Assembly: GCF_014649035.1 (NCBI RefSeq)
Contig: NZ_BMSG01000036.1
Span: 1 to 64,000 of the forward strand
DNA from: Streptomyces sindenensis
Lineage (GTDB): Bacteria; Actinomycetota; Actinomycetes; Streptomycetales; Streptomycetaceae
DNA length: 64,000 nucleotides
Reading direction: 5' to 3'
Part shown: positions 47,195 through 53,056 of the stretch, in pieces
How the letters are laid out: the number at the start of each line of letters is the position of its first letter
Position numbering within the stretch: position 1 is the stretch's first letter
Translations under genes and position numbers: made by a program
Notes under the pieces: model-generated
Database searches by the model: none
Seen by the model: the letters and a program-made list of their open reading frames with translations, nothing else
Told to the model about the DNA's origin: nothing

Positions 47195-47259
47195 CGGCAC
47201 GGGACAGCGGCACGGGACAGCGGCACGGGACAGCGGCACGGGACAGCGGCACGGGACAG
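47195..47259. repeat. Five perfect 13-bp tandem repeats
   Basis: CGGCACGGGACAG repeated five times exactly, starting ten bases upstream of the uppS start and touching its ribosome site. Read on the gene strand it is CTGTCCCGTGCCG. Copy-number change could alter the transcript leader or promoter spacing. Confidence 0.9.
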
Positions 47260-47413
47260 CGGATGTCGACGGACCCTATCAGCGGCTCGGGAAGTGGCGT
47301 CGGTCCGTCCCGGACCGGGGCTTCCGGAGGCCGGACCGGCTCGGTGCGGGCACAATCGAAGTGCTGCATCGAAGTGCTGCTCCGAATGCCCCCTGCGCGA
47401 AAAGGGGTACCAC

Positions 47414-49222
47414 GTGGACCACCCTCCCGGCCGGCCGGGCACACCGCTCCGTGCCGCACTCGACCGGCTGCCCGTTCCACGGATCCTGCGGCGCGCCGTG
47501 GGCGCGGCCACGGCGATGAGCGGCACCCGCCGCCTGGAATGGCTCAACGCGGCGGGCGCCCACATCGGTACCACGCTCGACCTGGACCGGACCGCCCAGG
47601 AGCTCGCGGACTACGCCGTACCGGAACTGGCCGACGCGGCCGCGGTCGACCTGCTGGAATCGATCCTGCGCGGAGGCGAGGGGGAACGGAGCGGATCGGC
47701 CGACGCGCCCCTGACCCGGGCCATGGCCGTGGCCCACATCGACGAGCTCAGGAACCTGGAACCGGACCCGGTGGGGGAGCTGACCACCGCCCACCCCTCC
47801 AAGGTGGCCCATCGGTGCCTGACCACGCGCCGACCGGCCCTGGTGCGACGCATCGCACCGGAACAGTACGAGTACATCGCCCCCACCTCGCACGCCGCCC
47901 TCGTCCTGCGCCGCGCGGGAGTGCACAGCTATCTGGCGCTGCCCCTCGTCTCCCGGGGTGTCCTGCTGGGACTCGTCGACTTCCTCCGGTCCGGGGACCG
48001 GCCACCGTTCTCGCACGCCGACGTGGCTCTCGCGTGCGAGCTGGCGGCGAAGGCCGCGGTGTTCGTGGACAACGCCCGCCTGTACGGGCGTGAGCGCGCG
48101 GCCGTCGTCGAGCTGCAACGCGCCCTGCTCCCCCGCGCCGCTCCCTCCACGCCGGGCCTGCGGGTCATGTCGAGCTACCGCCCCGCCGTCGACCCCGGCG
48201 GTGTGGGCGGCGACTGGTTCGACGTGGTGGCCCTGCCGAGCGGACGCAGCGCCCTCGTCGTGGGTGACGTGATGGGCCACGGGCTGGCGGCCGCGGCGAC
48301 CATGGGCCGGCTGCGCTCCGTCGCCCGTACGCTCCTGGGACTCGACATCTCACCGGAACGCGTACTGGCCCGGCTCGACCTGGCCGCCCGCGACCTGGAG
48401 GAGGACCAGGTCGCCACCTGCCTGTGCGCCGTCTACGACCACGCCGAGCGGACGTACCGGATGGCCAGCGCGGGCCACCTGCCGCCTTTGATGATCGACG
48501 CCGCCGGCCGGGCCGCCTTCCTGGACGTGCCCCCGGGCGCCCCCCTGGGCTCGGGGGTCATCCCCTACGACGAGGTGACGGCGAAGGTGCCGGAGGGCAG
48601 CCGCATCGTGATGTACACCGACGGGCTGATCAAGAACCGGCACGAGGACGTCGATGTTCCGCTGGAACGCCTGCGCGCGTCGGTCGACGGCCCGCCGGCC
48701 GCCCTGGCGGACACCTGCGAGGCGATCTGGACCGGGACCGACAGCTGCGGTGGCGGGCGATTCGACGACGCCGTCATGCTCATGGCGGAGACCCTGGCGC
48801 AGCCCGACGCGGAAGTGGTCGTCTGGTCGCTCCCGGACGACGGGTCGGCCGCCGGGGCGGCGCGCCGTCTGGTCCGCGCCCAGCTGGAACGCTGGTCGCT
48901 CTCCGAGCTGATGGACGTCACCGAACTGGTCGTGAGCGAACTCGTCGGCAACGCCCTCCGCTACGGCGGCGGGCCGAGCGGGCTGCGCCTGCTGCGCCAC
49001 GACCGGCTGTGCGTCGAGGTCTCGGACATCGGGCCGGATCTGCCCCAGATCCAGCACGCCCCCCTCAGCGCCGAGGGCGGCCGGGGGCTCCAGCTGATCA
49101 ACATGCTCTGCCGCCGGTGGGGCTCCTGCCGGACGCCCGAGGGAAAGGTCGTCTGGGCCGAGCAGGACCTGCCCGCTACGACGGCGAACTCCCGTCGCTC
49201 GCCGCCACAGCCCGGTCGCTGA
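47414..49222 (+). CDS. GAF-SpoIIE phosphatase with C-terminal ATPase domain
   Basis: A 602-residue signalling protein. Residues about 40-210 form a GAF sensor domain ('YLALPLVSRGVLLGLVDF' near its end). Residues about 225-420 are a PP2C-like SpoIIE phosphatase ('GVGGDWFDVVALPSGR', 'VGDVMGHGLAAAATMGRL', 'DDAVMLMAE', with metal-binding aspartates). The last 140 residues are an RsbW-like HATPase ('VSELVGNALRYGGG', 'GRGLQLINMLCRRWG'). Streptomyces have many of these, which dephosphorylate STAS anti-anti-sigma proteins and may bind anti-sigma factors. The partner STAS gene is not adjacent. The GTG start has AAGGGG upstream. It overlaps the convergent toxin-cluster gene by 47 bases. Confidence 0.88.
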   Translation: MDHPPGRPGTPLRAALDRLPVPRILRRAVGAATAMSGTRRLEWLNAAGAHIGTTLDLDRTAQELADYAVPELADAAAVDLLESILRGGEGERSGSADAPLTRAMAVAHIDELRNLEPDPVGELTTAHPSKVAHRCLTTRRPALVRRIAPEQYEYIAPTSHAALVLRRAGVHSYLALPLVSRGVLLGLVDFLRSGDRPPFSHADVALACELAAKAAVFVDNARLYGRERAAVVELQRALLPRAAPSTPGLRVMSSYRPAVDPGGVGGDWFDVVALPSGRSALVVGDVMGHGLAAAATMGRLRSVARTLLGLDISPERVLARLDLAARDLEEDQVATCLCAVYDHAERTYRMASAGHLPPLMIDAAGRAAFLDVPPGAPLGSGVIPYDEVTAKVPEGSRIVMYTDGLIKNRHEDVDVPLERLRASVDGPPAALADTCEAIWTGTDSCGGGRFDDAVMLMAETLAQPDAEVVVWSLPDDGSAAGAARRLVRAQLERWSLSELMDVTELVVSELVGNALRYGGGPSGLRLLRHDRLCVEVSDIGPDLPQIQHAPLSAEGGRGLQLINMLCRRWGSCRTPEGKVVWAEQDLPATTANSRRSPPQPGR

Positions 49223-49703
49223 CCAGAGCCGCCAGCACCAGCGGCTGGTCACCGTCGCTCCGTCCGAGCGTCAGGGCGATCCGACGGCCGGTGGTGCCCA
49301 CCGGGCCCCACACCACCAGGTCCCCGTACAGGTCCTGCCGGAACAGGGCCTCGACCAGCGGGTCCACCGCCGAGCCGCCCTGCCACCGCAGCAGCGGCCC
49401 ATGCAGGGGGACCTCGGTGTGCGGGCCCCAGCGGTGGCCCAACTCCTCCGCCAGGGACCTCAGACGGGCCTCCGCCGCCTCCTCCGCGTCGCTCCACTCG
49501 GGGGCGTACACACCGGTCATCGGGTCGCCCTCCCAGAGCGGCACGACACGGAAGCCGGGCCCCTGGGTGGCGGTCCACTCGCCGGTCGCCGGGTCGCCCA
49601 GCGCCTCCGTGGGGCCGGTGGGCGGCAGGGGGGCGGTGAGGAGTTCCCCGACCTCGGTCAGCGCCCGGCCGAGATCGAAGGGCTGTCCCGCCCGGGAGGT
49701 CAC
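49176..49703 (-). CDS. Unassigned protein of the toxin/immunity cluster (175 aa)
   Basis: A 175-residue soluble protein with a long acidic middle (WSDAEEAAEARLRSLAEELG) and a C-terminal strand-rich part ('LYGDLVVWGPVGTTGRRIAL'). It is encoded directly after an Imm52-like gene, overlapping its end by four bases (ATGA), so both are translated together. The C-terminal gene end overlaps the SpoIIE gene. I do not recognise a family. The position downstream of toxin and immunity genes suggests a second immunity protein, an immunity partner or an unrelated accessory gene. Confidence 0.65.
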   Translation of the reverse strand: MTSRAGQPFDLGRALTEVGELLTAPLPPTGPTEALGDPATGEWTATQGPGFRVVPLWEGDPMTGVYAPEWSDAEEAAEARLRSLAEELGHRWGPHTEVPLHGPLLRWQGGSAVDPLVEALFRQDLYGDLVVWGPVGTTGRRIALTLGRSDGDQPLVLAALVSDRAVAASDGSSPS

Positions 49704-50398
49704 AGCACCGCCCGGTCCATCGGGCGGGGCAGCGGCGCCAGGGCCCCCGCCTCGCGGAGCCGCTCGTACACCCGCACCACGGTCGCACTGTCACCCGGGG
49801 CCGCGATGCTCAGCAACTCCCCGCCGCCGGGCAGCGGTTCACGGACGGTCTCCAGGTCGTCGGGGACGAGGGCGGCGCGGGCCGGCGAGAGGTATCCGGT
49901 GCGTCCGACGACGGGGGCGCCGACGGAGTAGCCGGCGTCGTCCTCCAGCGCGTCCAGCACGTCGTCGTCGCTCACGTCGCCGAAGTCCGGCTCCCACACC
50001 CGGGCGACGAGGGAGAGCAGCGCCTCCTCGGGCACCACTGCCTCGTCCGGGGCGTGCAGGATGATCGCGAGCGACTGGAGCAGGAACTCCGGCGCACCGC
50101 CGGCCAGTCCGCTGACCTCGGCCTGCCAGCCGGCCGCGCCGGTCCCGACGAGCCGCAGCCCGGTCCCGGTGCGGTCCGACCAGTCGGTCGCGCTCTGGGC
50201 GGTACGGAGCGCGCCGAGCAGGGCGTCCCGGTCGGCGGTGAAGGCGGTGGCGGGCCCGCTGCCGTGGACCTGGCTCCAGACGTCGGCCGCCTGCGGGACC
50301 AGCTCGGCGATCCCGTCGAGGGTCCGCAGCCATCGGTCGGCCACCGCCTCGACCGGCTCCGGCCGGGGACCCCAGAAGCCCCGCACTACACGTCGCAT
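49700..50398 (-). CDS. Imm52-like immunity protein
   Basis: A 232-residue protein resembling Imm52: 'MRRVVRGFWGPRPEPVEAVADRW' at the start, with 'WGPRPE' typical of this family, and helices and strands to 'GDSATVVRVYERLREAG'. Imm52 proteins neutralise Tox-REase-5 nucleases and are encoded beside them, and the gene directly upstream encodes exactly such a domain. It is preceded by a good GGAGGAGAG ribosome site and starts 117 bases after the toxin stop. The family assignment is from memory of polymorphic toxin systems, so moderate. Confidence 0.7.
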   Translation of the reverse strand: MRRVVRGFWGPRPEPVEAVADRWLRTLDGIAELVPQAADVWSQVHGSGPATAFTADRDALLGALRTAQSATDWSDRTGTGLRLVGTGAAGWQAEVSGLAGGAPEFLLQSLAIILHAPDEAVVPEEALLSLVARVWEPDFGDVSDDDVLDALEDDAGYSVGAPVVGRTGYLSPARAALVPDDLETVREPLPGGGELLSIAAPGDSATVVRVYERLREAGALAPLPRPMDRAVL

Positions 50399-50515: not shown

Positions 50516-53056
50516 CTACTCGTCGAAAGCTCCCGGCTTTCTGGTGCTGTCGCCCGGGTGGGGCTTGGTGTGCACCACCTTGATCGGCAGCCCCTCGTCA
50601 CGGAACGCCTTGCGGGCGGCCTTGGCCACGTCCGGGTCGGAGAAGTGCCACTCCACGCTCCGGCCGCCGGCCGCCTCGACCTGGGCGCGGGCCTCGGTGA
50701 CGAACTTGTCCTTCCCGGACGGGGTCAGGGAGCCCCTGTCCGACTGGGACAGATAGCTGCCGTACCCGTTCTTGGCCTCCAGGAACGTCTGGCGGGAGGA
50801 GTCCCAACCGTCGTACTCCACCGCCGGTTTGCCCTCGCGCGGGTGCGGGACGACGTACTCCTGGCCGCGGTTGGTGCCGGTCACCTGCTCCTGGTAGCGG
50901 AGCCAGGACTCGTTCTTCCAGTTCGGCGCGGGGTTGCGGTCCCGGCTGGCCCAGTAGCCGTCGCCCCCGTCGGCGTCGCCGAACGTGCGGTCCTTGAGAT
51001 CGTCGGCCCAGGACGGCGGGTTGTAGTTGCGCGGGTCGGAGGTGTCGTTGCGCTGCGGCTCCGGGTACTTCTTCTTGTCCGCCTCCGCCCGGCGCGCCCG
51101 GTCCGGCTCCTCCAGCCGCTTCTGGTCCAGGTGCGCCTGGCGTTCCGCCGCCCGCGCCTCGTCGGCCGCCTTCTTGGCCGCCTCGTCGCAGCCGCCCTCG
51201 GCGAGGACGATCCGGCCCGGGGAACCGCCCGCGAGCACGCCGGTGCCCGCGCCCGGCACACCGCCGGACCCACCGCCACCGCCACTTCCGCCGCCGCCTC
51301 CGTACGGCACCCTGGGCGGACCGCCGGCGATGACGCAGCCGGTGCGGCGCGCCGCGTCCTCGGCGCTGTCCGCCGCCTCGTCGGCCTCCTTCGCCGCCTG
51401 GCGTACGCCGTCGAGGTCGCCCGCGTCCGCGGCCTGGCGGGCCCGGCGGGCAGCGGCGCTCGCATCGCCCGCCGCGTCCGCGATCTCGGAGGCCACGTTG
51501 CCGACCTTGCCGAGCTTGCCGGCCTTGCCGACCACCTTCGCCACGTTGTAGCCGGGGATGAACAGCGAGCCGACGTTCCAGATGACATCGGTGACGGCCC
51601 GGGTCTTCTCGCCGTTGTTCCAGCGCTCGCGGACCTCGTCCCCGACGAAGATGTCGTCCCCGACCGTGATCACCGTGTTGACGGAGGCCCCGCCCCAGTC
51701 CAGGAGCGCGCCCAGGTAGTCGCCGTCGGCCCACTTGTCGCCCGCGCCCTCGGAGTCGGTGACCCACTGGTCGCCGAGCTGCTTGCCGTAGTCGACCAGG
51801 CCCGACCAGGTCTCCGGCTTGAACAGGTCGACGATGCCGGTGATGTCGCCCCAGATCCCGTCGACCACCAGCCCCTTGAAGACCTGGGTCGTACGGTCCC
51901 AGGCGCAGCCGAAGAAGCCCCAGCCGCCGCAGTCCTCCTGCTCCTCGGCCTGCTCGCCGCCCTCGCCCTCACCGTCGCCGTCGTCGGACGCCTGTACGTC
52001 GTAGGCGGCCTCGGGCTCCTCGTGGTCCTCCGAGTAGGTGTCCTCGCCGGTGCCGGGGCGGCCGTCGTCGGGGCCTCCGGTGCCACCGGAGGAGTCGGCG
52101 CCGCCGGTGCCCCGGGTGCCTTCGGAACCGCCGGAGCCCTGCGTGCCGCCCGTACCCTCCGGGCCTCCGGCGCCCCCTGTCCCGCCGGAGCCGCCCGTGC
52201 CGCCGGAACCCTCCGTCCCGCCCGTACCGCCCGTCGCGTCGCCGCCGGTCGAGCCGCCCGTGGTGGTACCACCCGTGAGGGTCGAACCACCGTCGGATCC
52301 GCCTCCGTCAGCGCCCCCGTCAGCGCCCCCGTCGGCCCCGCCGTCCGCGCTCCCCGACGTACCGCCGTCCGCGCCGCCGCCCGGGTCGTCTCCCGCGACG
52401 GTGTCGCTGCCACCGGGCGACACCGGGCACGAACTGCCCGTCAGCGAGCAGATCGCGGACTGGAGCCCCTCCGTGATCCGGCCGCCGAGGCCACCCACCG
52501 TCAGCGCCCCGATCAGCGCGACGACGATCAGGACCAGGCCCAGGTACTCCAGCGCGGACTGCCCGCGGTCCCGGCGCCAGGTGATCATGTGCGGGAGCGA
52601 GAACTTCGGCGGCTCCCCGCGCTCCCGGGGCGGCAGCAGGAACCACGCGCGGCTCTGCGGGCGGCGCAGCAGCACCAGGATCACGACGGGCAGCACCAGC
52701 TGGGTGAACCCGTCCGGCGACCCGTCCGACACATTGCCGAGGCCACCGATGATCAGCCAGATCTGGACGGCGACGGTCCCCCACAGCACGCGTCGGCCGC
52801 CCGTACGCAGATGCCGGGCCAGCAGGGCGCAGAGCACCCCGGGGGCGGACGCGTACAGCAGGATGCCGAACACCTGGGCGCCCATGGCGTCGGCGGCGAG
52901 CGCCGAGCCGGAGAGGCCGACCGCGCCGAGGACCGTCGCGCCGAGCAGGACCAGGAGCAGCACCCGGACCAGGGCGAGCGGGCCGGGGAGGTCACGCCGG
53001 GGGGCGGCGGCCGGAGCCGGGCCTCCCGCTACGGGTATGCCACCGACAGCAGACAT
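50516..53056 (-). CDS. Polymorphic toxin with Flp-pilin-like segment and C-terminal Tox-REase-5 domain
   Basis: An 846-residue protein. Residues 25-133 contain four predicted membrane helices. At 164-190 a class III prepilin-like segment, R-GQSALEY plus a hydrophobic helix, has G165/Q166 as the processing site and Glu170 at +5 followed by Tyr, as in Flp pilins. Residues 213-340 are a Gly/Thr/Ser/Asp-rich linker; 340-620 include 'CGGWGFFGC' and helical stretches; 580-605 are poly-Gly/Ser. The end (about 690-830) matches Tox-REase-5: 'WLRYQEQVTG', 'VEYDGWDSSRQTFLEAKNGY' with Asp749, Glu760 and Lys762 as a PD-(D/E)XK site, then 'RSVEWHFSDPDVA'. The immunity gene follows. Confidence 0.85.
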   Translation of the reverse strand: MSAVGGIPVAGGPAPAAAPRRDLPGPLALVRVLLLVLLGATVLGAVGLSGSALAADAMGAQVFGILLYASAPGVLCALLARHLRTGGRRVLWGTVAVQIWLIIGGLGNVSDGSPDGFTQLVLPVVILVLLRRPQSRAWFLLPPRERGEPPKFSLPHMITWRRDRGQSALEYLGLVLIVVALIGALTVGGLGGRITEGLQSAICSLTGSSCPVSPGGSDTVAGDDPGGGADGGTSGSADGGADGGADGGADGGGSDGGSTLTGGTTTGGSTGGDATGGTGGTEGSGGTGGSGGTGGAGGPEGTGGTQGSGGSEGTRGTGGADSSGGTGGPDDGRPGTGEDTYSEDHEEPEAAYDVQASDDGDGEGEGGEQAEEQEDCGGWGFFGCAWDRTTQVFKGLVVDGIWGDITGIVDLFKPETWSGLVDYGKQLGDQWVTDSEGAGDKWADGDYLGALLDWGGASVNTVITVGDDIFVGDEVRERWNNGEKTRAVTDVIWNVGSLFIPGYNVAKVVGKAGKLGKVGNVASEIADAAGDASAAARRARQAADAGDLDGVRQAAKEADEAADSAEDAARRTGCVIAGGPPRVPYGGGGGSGGGGGSGGVPGAGTGVLAGGSPGRIVLAEGGCDEAAKKAADEARAAERQAHLDQKRLEEPDRARRAEADKKKYPEPQRNDTSDPRNYNPPSWADDLKDRTFGDADGGDGYWASRDRNPAPNWKNESWLRYQEQVTGTNRGQEYVVPHPREGKPAVEYDGWDSSRQTFLEAKNGYGSYLSQSDRGSLTPSGKDKFVTEARAQVEAAGGRSVEWHFSDPDVAKAARKAFRDEGLPIKVVHTKPHPGDSTRKPGAFDE

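Follow-up and report, generated by a model that had tools for sequence, protein, structure and literature searches.

A Tox-REase-5 nuclease gene of Streptomyces sindenensis with an internal Tad-type pilin module and its relatives in actinomycetes

The toxin gene, its nuclease domain and its neighbours

The stretch analysed in the present study, hereafter called the window, is a 64,000-nucleotide piece of Streptomyces sindenensis DNA from contig C36 of a 7.56-Mb genome (handles beginning with L, G, and C denote loci, genomes, and contigs in our survey). A toxin gene occupies positions 50516 to 53056 on the reverse strand, and the list of open reading frames and the translation give an uninterrupted frame of 846 amino acids (aa). 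The encoded protein consists of a leader, an Flp pilin module, a linker, a pretoxin region, and a Tox-REase-5 domain. The leader (52664-52978, residues 27-131) comprises four membrane helices, located at residues 25-54, 60-82, 88-110, and 115-130 in the AlphaFold model. It is followed by a loop that is predicted to be cytoplasmic (52562-52663, residues 132-165) and ends with RRDRG; cleavage by a prepilin peptidase is predicted after G165. The mature pilin module (52430-52561, residues 166-209) has Glu at +5 and Tyr at +6, helices at residues 168-187 and 190-206, and a cysteine, C203. The sequence continues with a Gly/Thr/Asp/Ser-rich linker (51929-52429, residues 210-376) and a pretoxin region (51017-51928, residues 377-680), which AlphaFold models as mostly helical with low confidence. 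All of these features lie on the reverse strand. A preliminary description, made from the sequence alone, had listed four membrane helices, a GQSALEY helix with Glu +5 and Tyr +6, and a Gly/Thr/Asp linker, and this arrangement was borne out by the sequence and the modelled helices.

The nuclease domain (50636-50905, reverse strand, residues 718-807) matches Tox-REase-5 (PF15648) at E=6.2e-18, with 65.6 bits against a cut-off of 25. D749, E760, and K762, which the preliminary description had assigned to a domain of this kind, are invariant in alignments of 17 and 39 rows. In the AlphaFold model of residues 370-846, the middle is weak (mean predicted local distance difference test score of 61) and the last ~140 residues are good. 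Foldseek returned only two matches at E<=0.001: the Pseudomonas aeruginosa PA3907-PA3908 complex (9oz0_B, E=2.0e-5) and TseT-TsiT (7dym_A, E=3.6e-4). A second aligner, VIA-align, gave Z scores of 13.2 and 12.9 for the same two structures, over 130 and 129 residues with root-mean-square deviations of 2.9 and 2.7. Both the PD-(D/E)xK catalytic residues and the fold of a TseT-like Tox-REase-5 nuclease are present in the window protein, and TseT has been reported as a DNase with a Tox-REase-5 domain (PMC9990079). Matches of the pretoxin region to helical proteins by VIA-align (Z up to 10.9) were within the range flagged as unreliable by the tool, and the best match of a C-terminal profile to sequences in the Protein Data Bank (PDB), ribosomal protein S20 at E=0.012, was taken as chance. 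TseT-TsiT is an effector-immunity pair of the P. aeruginosa type VI secretion system (T6SS). It has the nuclease fold and Tox-REase-5 in common with the window protein; however, it is delivered by the T6SS in a Gram-negative bacterium, whereas the carrier described here is of the pilin type and belongs to an actinomycete.

An adjacent gene (49700-50398, reverse strand) encodes a protein of the Imm52 immunity family (PF15579, E=1.4e-5), its 25.3 bits being only just above the cut-off of 25. Imm52 is listed as the partner of Tox-REase-5 by Zhang et al. (PMC3482391). The best 80 matches among named Streptomyces records yielded 77 related loci, and the frame was obtained in 76 of these, with L174, L183, L186, and L215 including truncated or other frames. 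An Imm52 homologue adjoins the toxin in 44 of the 76. Soil-dwelling species, for example S. griseus and S. globisporus, are among the named records, and the closest named relatives found were Streptomyces globisporus, S. parvus, and S. rubiginosohelvolus, with 96-97% identity over residues 1-215. A tblastn search among 72,556 plasmid records gave no match.

The end of the immunity gene is overlapped by a gene for a 175-aa protein (49176-49703, reverse strand), to which Pfam and NCBIfam assigned no family above the cut-off and a homologue of which lies close by in 33 of the 76 named loci. Since TseT homologues of Burkholderia gladioli adjoin two immunity proteins (PMC9990079), it is a reasonable guess that the 175-aa protein may be a second immunity protein; an accessory role is also conceivable. 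Sequence searches of the PDB with the Imm52 protein and its profile found no TsiT chain. The matches obtained, a designed TIM barrel for the protein (E=0.0009, 48 residues) and lysozyme for the profile (E=0.0008, 23 residues), were taken as chance. PADLOC proposed the candidate models PDC-M17A and PDC-M17B for the toxin domain and the immunity protein, respectively, and the sharing of a domain does not show phage defence.

The window gene thus combines a recognised C-terminal toxin domain, a downstream immunity gene, and a conserved carrier that bears unrelated tails in its relatives, and is a polymorphic toxin gene. The polymorphic toxins of Zhang et al. (2012; PMC3482391) likewise have a constant carrier, a variable C-terminal toxin, and an adjacent immunity gene.

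A complete pilin module inside the toxin

The junction between the loop and the module reads G165|Q166-S-A-L-E170-Y171 and leads into a hydrophobic helix. A profile of residues 154-209 aligned with 16 small pilins from Tad operons with a probability of 98.7% in hhalign (E=3.1e-16), and the alignment reached the end of the pilin. Because the homology extends this far, the toxin holds a whole mature pilin and not the signal alone.

Profile libraries do not name this part. Pfam (E<=10) and NCBIfam returned no family for the pilin part of the window protein, which weighs against a pilin identity and disappoints the expectation of an Flp profile match in the preliminary description. The Flp_Fap profile (PF04964) had no match at E<=10 in the window protein or elsewhere in its genome, including the Tad-operon pilin. 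The Flp_Fap test has little power here because that known positive also fails it. The same Tad-operon pilin showed a weak NCBIfam match to the Mbov_0395 pilin-like family (E=0.0016), and the pilin segment of a homologue, L063, matched Flp_Fap at E=0.007, both below the cut-offs. A short leader and a small size, as expected of an Flp pilin, were not found: the leader is 165 aa long with four membrane helices and the protein has 846 aa. The window protein is not filed as an Flp pilin for this reason.

A query of residues 1-215 had a match in 53 of 121 Streptomyces genomes, many of the matches being small pilins. A query of residues 1-155, from which the motif is excluded, found 49 places in 32 of the 121. 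Among the 39 places at E<=1e-10, 38 carry a match to the pilin profile directly downstream. The exception, in G026 (L033), is an apparent broken remnant in a Tad locus, neighboured by OmpA-like and lipoprotein-like frames. Among the 10 weaker places (E above 1e-10), the module was found in two (G089 and a fragment in G068), and three of the module-less places inspected were Pro/Gly-rich four-helix proteins. Since the module is kept in 38 of 39 homologues picked without the motif, the motif is more than chance. Absence of the motif from every close homologue, considered beforehand as a refutation, did not occur; a missing library match, also considered as one, did occur for the Flp part, where the known positive fails as well.

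We also considered whether the segment merely adds a fifth, pilin-like membrane helix, with export of the protein proceeding through membrane insertion or by a different route and with some other role for the motif. In favour of this view, Val, Ile, Leu, and Ala abound in the helix, its position is atypical, and the profile libraries assign no name to the segment in the window protein. In an alignment of 62 rows, however, the invariant columns include D163, G165, Q166, E170, Y171, G173, and C203; G165, Q166, E170, Y171, and G173 lie within the least variable N-terminal stretch. The mean entropy is 0.58 bits for residues 163-173 and 1.31 bits for residues 1-215, and the nine-residue windows of lowest entropy within residues 1-215 begin at residues 157-166. 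The rows of this alignment (A1) were selected by the motif pattern, which makes its invariant columns partly circular, and the survey with residues 1-155 is the independent test. Together with the profile-profile match to Tad-operon pilins and the linkage to Tad and A24 prepilin peptidase genes described below, these data render the fifth-helix explanation improbable.

The preliminary description had regarded a signal 165 residues into the protein as atypical for a pilin. Averaged over the 62 rows, Lys and Arg together number 2.5 at the N-terminus; loops 1-2, 2-3, and 3-4 have means of 0.0, 2.2, and 0.1, respectively, and the loop leading to the motif (residues 132-166) has a mean of 9.3. This charge pattern suggests that the motif faces the cytoplasm. 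The objection is partly answered by this pattern and by a second class of carriers, in which the module is near the N-terminus; in proteins of the window type, the position is still internal.

Exchangeable tips and linkage to Tad loci

The loci fetched first contained 61 distinct large frames with a pilin segment. In class A, which is the window type, membrane helices precede the segment, and the tails fall into several unrelated clusters. Class B comprises 12 frames (alignment A8) encoding proteins of 499-645 aa, in which the Gly of the motif is at residue 32-82 from the first possible start in 11 frames and at 131 in one. Their segment aligned with the same small pilins in hhalign (98.8%, E=1.1e-16), and 10 of the 11 class B proteins scanned contain PT-HINT. 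The third class, class C, has 16 proteins with a conserved C-terminus; 11 of these have three or four upstream helices, and most read GATAxEY. They are possibly tips or adhesins.

Tips named by Pfam are Tox-REase-5, ADPrib_exo_Tox, and Abhydrolase_8 in class A and Ntox21 and XOO_2897-deam in class B. L071 combines two helices with PT-HINT and Tox-REase-5. A Pfam scan of L045, L055, and L069 found no toxin family. Tips vary between near-identical carriers (L072). Among three adjacent class B genes in G098, carrier identity is 79% (427 aa) and 98% (251 aa), and the tails differ. A paralogue in the genome of the window (contig C6, L007, 8092-10647) is 46% identical to the window protein over residues 16-457, has the start of the pretoxin region in common with it, and ends in Abhydrolase_8. 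Directly upstream of this paralogue, L002 contains a frame like the end of its Abhydrolase_8 hydrolase.

The same tips also occur on different carriers. The class A tail in L055 is related to the class B tail in L080 (57% identity, 143 aa; for L168, 58%, 147 aa), and those of the class A proteins L180 and L206 are 84 and 83% identical, respectively, to the class B tail of L079 over 116 aa. Outside the tail, only the pilin segment of L180 and L206 aligns with L079 (45% over 44 aa for L180). Two tips are thus shared by the carrier classes, and such pairs have essentially no alignable sequence besides the tip and pilin segment. The carriers of classes A and B are interchangeable because tips are common to both, which would be expected of two carriers serving a single route. 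Tips can be exchanged, and conservation of G165 and E170 with a variable C-terminus, which the preliminary description proposed to look for, is what the homologues display.

Conversely, the nuclease is closely associated with this type of carrier. Tox-REase-5 was found at 21 places in the 121 genomes, and 19 are in a single open frame with a pilin module. Of the other two, one is the G005 gene, which is split by a frame break, and one, in G095, is on another carrier. Counting the split gene, 20 of 21 domains are on pilin-module carriers.

The Tad locus of the window's own genome encodes RcpC, a TadZ-like ATPase, two TadE proteins, TadA, TadB, TadC, a TadE/G-like protein (PF13400, E=2.1e-7), a sensor kinase, a response regulator, an Flp pilin, and an OmpA-family protein. 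A single A24 prepilin peptidase gene lies ~20 kb off on the same contig. The tad and peptidase genes that the preliminary description had suggested searching for are thus present. The interval from the Tad pilin gene to the A24 prepilin peptidase gene contains a class A gene in 12 of the 121 genomes. In 11 fetched loci (L046, L050, L053, L054, L055, L060, L063, L064, L065, L067, and L071), the class A gene is 3' of the Tad genes and has their orientation, its distance past the OmpA frame being 0.2 to ~9 kb. The order in L060 is Tad genes, Flp pilin, lipoprotein-like gene, OmpA, toxin, Imm52, a gene without an assigned family, and A24 peptidase.

On the assumption of uniform placement, 0.29 class A frames would be expected within 30 kb of an A24 gene and 13 of 40 were found; for the other carrier frames, 0.22 were expected and 25 of 30 were found. 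The window gene and two short frames (G070 and G068) are counted among the 40 class A places. Two frames were excluded as unclear (G116:C60:30116, 455 aa; G105:C1:3234723, 463 aa), G029:C1:715385 was counted as a small pilin, and pilin-profile matches were counted down to ~E=3e-16, weaker ones being outside the counts. In the named loci, at least two Tad-locus markers lie within ~9 kb in 30 of 76 frames. One marker is a lipoprotein-like gene without a Pfam family, and L168, L172, and L174 are counted by this gene and OmpA alone; the TadE/G-like gene (PF13400) is not among the markers.

The toxin genes near Tad loci might merely mark a recombination hot spot, which would render the association non-functional. 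Accessory genes can gather at island ends, and polymorphic toxins are often mobile. However, the toxins themselves bear the pilin module, as do copies distant from the locus, and we consider this explanation very improbable.

More weight may be given to the possibility that A24 processing of the pilin module only releases the toxin or anchors it at the membrane or wall, no pilus being involved and the toxin acting after shedding or HINT-type release. A processed pilin helix could by itself leave the toxin outside, the window copy lies outside the Tad locus, and PT-HINT is frequent in class B, HINT domains having been described as releasing peptidases (PMC3482391). On the other hand, Glu+5 is invariant and has been described as part of a pilus-assembly motif (PMC3244431), the toxin gene neighbours the Tad operon in 12 genomes, and the homology spans the pilin to its end, beyond the signal. 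We therefore regard release or anchoring without a pilus as rather unlikely.

A proposed pilus route for polymorphic toxins

We consider it somewhat probable that the product of the window gene is an antibacterial nuclease of the polymorphic kind and that its trafficking is that of a modular pilin of the Tad (type IVc) type. In the scheme that we infer from homology, topology, and gene placement, the four-helix leader would insert with RRDRG|QSALEY toward the cytoplasm, as the charge pattern and the model indicate. The A24 prepilin peptidase may then cut after G165, to judge from the invariant residues and homology. The freed pilin would have an N-terminal helix with Glu+5, and its outer part would be the linker and nuclease. 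Based on the operon placement of relatives, the Tad motor may place the subunit in, or at the tip of, an Flp pilus; alternatively, the subunit may act like a pseudopilin and push the toxin out. Once a competing cell, probably of another actinomycete, is touched, the nuclease would enter it and cut DNA, and kin would presumably be protected by Imm52. The Tad-like or prepilin-peptidase route of the preliminary description is thus supported in its Tad-pilin homology and toxin domain; processing and export stay at the level of inference.

We also speculate, with about equal expectation of being right or wrong, that actinomycete Tad pili in general are a toxin-delivery machine. In this view, the prepilin peptidase would cleave polymorphic toxins fused to complete Flp pilins, and the pilus, with the toxins inserted in it or attached to it, would convey them to competing cells; the tips would be exchangeable and the immunity genes would match them.

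Several observations weigh against pilus-borne delivery, in addition to the missing library family for the pilin part. The motif of class A is internal, and no proven instance is known in which an A24 peptidase cuts after four membrane helices. The window copy and its close orthologues are away from the Tad locus: they are on another contig in the window's own genome and in G056, and >500 kb distant in the six relatives that have both on one contig. Among the class A places, 27 of 40 are not near an A24 gene, nine of these being on contigs without one. Moreover, the linked genomes are not independent by descent. RcpC was found in 119, A24 in 119, and the Flp profile in at least 108 of the 121 genomes; because the Tad machinery is near-universal in the genus, co-occurrence cannot discriminate, and linkage was used instead. 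In Myxococcus, deletion of the Tad prepilin peptidase KilA alone did not abolish killing (PMC8460266).

The delivery systems that Zhang et al., who count at least eight, name in the passages considered are the type II, V, VI, and VII secretion systems (T2SS, T5SS, T6SS, and T7SS), PVC, TcdB/TcaC, PrsW, and MuF; a pilin route is not among them, and the word "pilin" is absent from the part of the text searched (PMC3482391). PrsW requires consideration in that these authors coupled REase-5 with this membrane peptidase, and N-terminal membrane helices are present in both. However, Pfam found no PrsW family in the window protein at E<=10 (HMMER filters may drop weak matches), and most PrsW proteins have eight helices as opposed to four. 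We consider a PrsW-type toxin extremely improbable. Pfam at E<=10 also identified no other secretion domain in the window protein.

Three published systems resemble parts of the proposed route. Modular type IV pilins, for example PilB of Streptococcus sanguinis, carry a module grafted on a pilin for display on a filament, as proposed here, and 264 architectures have been reported (PMC8179133). These are N-terminal IPR012902 pilins with mainly adhesive modules, two having peptidase modules; the word "nuclease" and a toxin-immunity pair are absent from the available text. In the proteins described here, by contrast, the module is of the Tad/Flp type, the toxins are accompanied by immunity genes, and the signal of class A is internal. 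The Kil system of Myxococcus xanthus is a Tad-like killing pilus with contact-dependent killing and interchangeable tips, the maturation of three of which has been linked to the prepilin peptidase (PMC8460266, PMC12075869). In the portions available, no toxin is named, and the tips belong to the minor pilins, one of them having an additional domain that lacks a characterised homologue; they are not known toxin domains with immunity genes, unlike the tips described here. The umbrella toxins of Streptomyces are also polymorphic toxins acting between streptomycetes; however, they are TAT-exported ALF-repeat particles with lectins, and "pilin" and "Tad" are absent from the text searched (PMC11062931).

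The preliminary description knew of no toxin with this layout, and we likewise found no publication describing toxins that contain a Tad pilin in the open-access literature, subscription papers and preprints being outside the search. If the proposed route is correct, it adds a likely mode of trafficking for polymorphic toxins, a pilus route that is absent from the list in PMC3482391, and provides directly identified toxins for Tad-mediated killing. It would also explain the large proteins beside actinobacterial Tad operons, the carrier part of which has no Pfam family in the present scans. The presence of a toxin domain and a pilin in one protein, with an immunity gene, makes the proposal testable by simple deletions.

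The module is also found outside Streptomyces. In a class-wide draw of 296 genomes, 35 had a profile match at E<=1e-8, 11 of which were outside the genus. Eleven further stretches were fetched, eight from outside Streptomyces. In seven of these eight frames, the segment precedes PT-HINT (four, one with Colicin_D), Peptidase_C2 (two), or a GDSL lipase (one); no family was identified in the eighth, L134. In L128-L133 and L138, Flp-type segments lie near the N-terminus of toxin- or enzyme-like proteins (PT-HINT, Colicin_D, calpain-like protease, and GDSL lipase), and L128 has a small pilin-like frame ~8 kb away.

Some minor observations were made on the relatives and the window. The class C members are L005 (up to 12102), L046, L051, L053, L065, L071, L073-L077, L079, L083, L084, L087, and L088; many end with YLPYSYCA, and they often adjoin Tad loci. 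L005, which is in the window's own genome, matched no Pfam family. Broken or short relatives are the split toxin gene of G005 (L039), the G026 remnant, and L183, in which the carrier runs straight into a short toxin end. At 47195-47262, the window contains a tandem array with a 13-nucleotide unit (CGGCACGGGACAG) that is exact for about five units.

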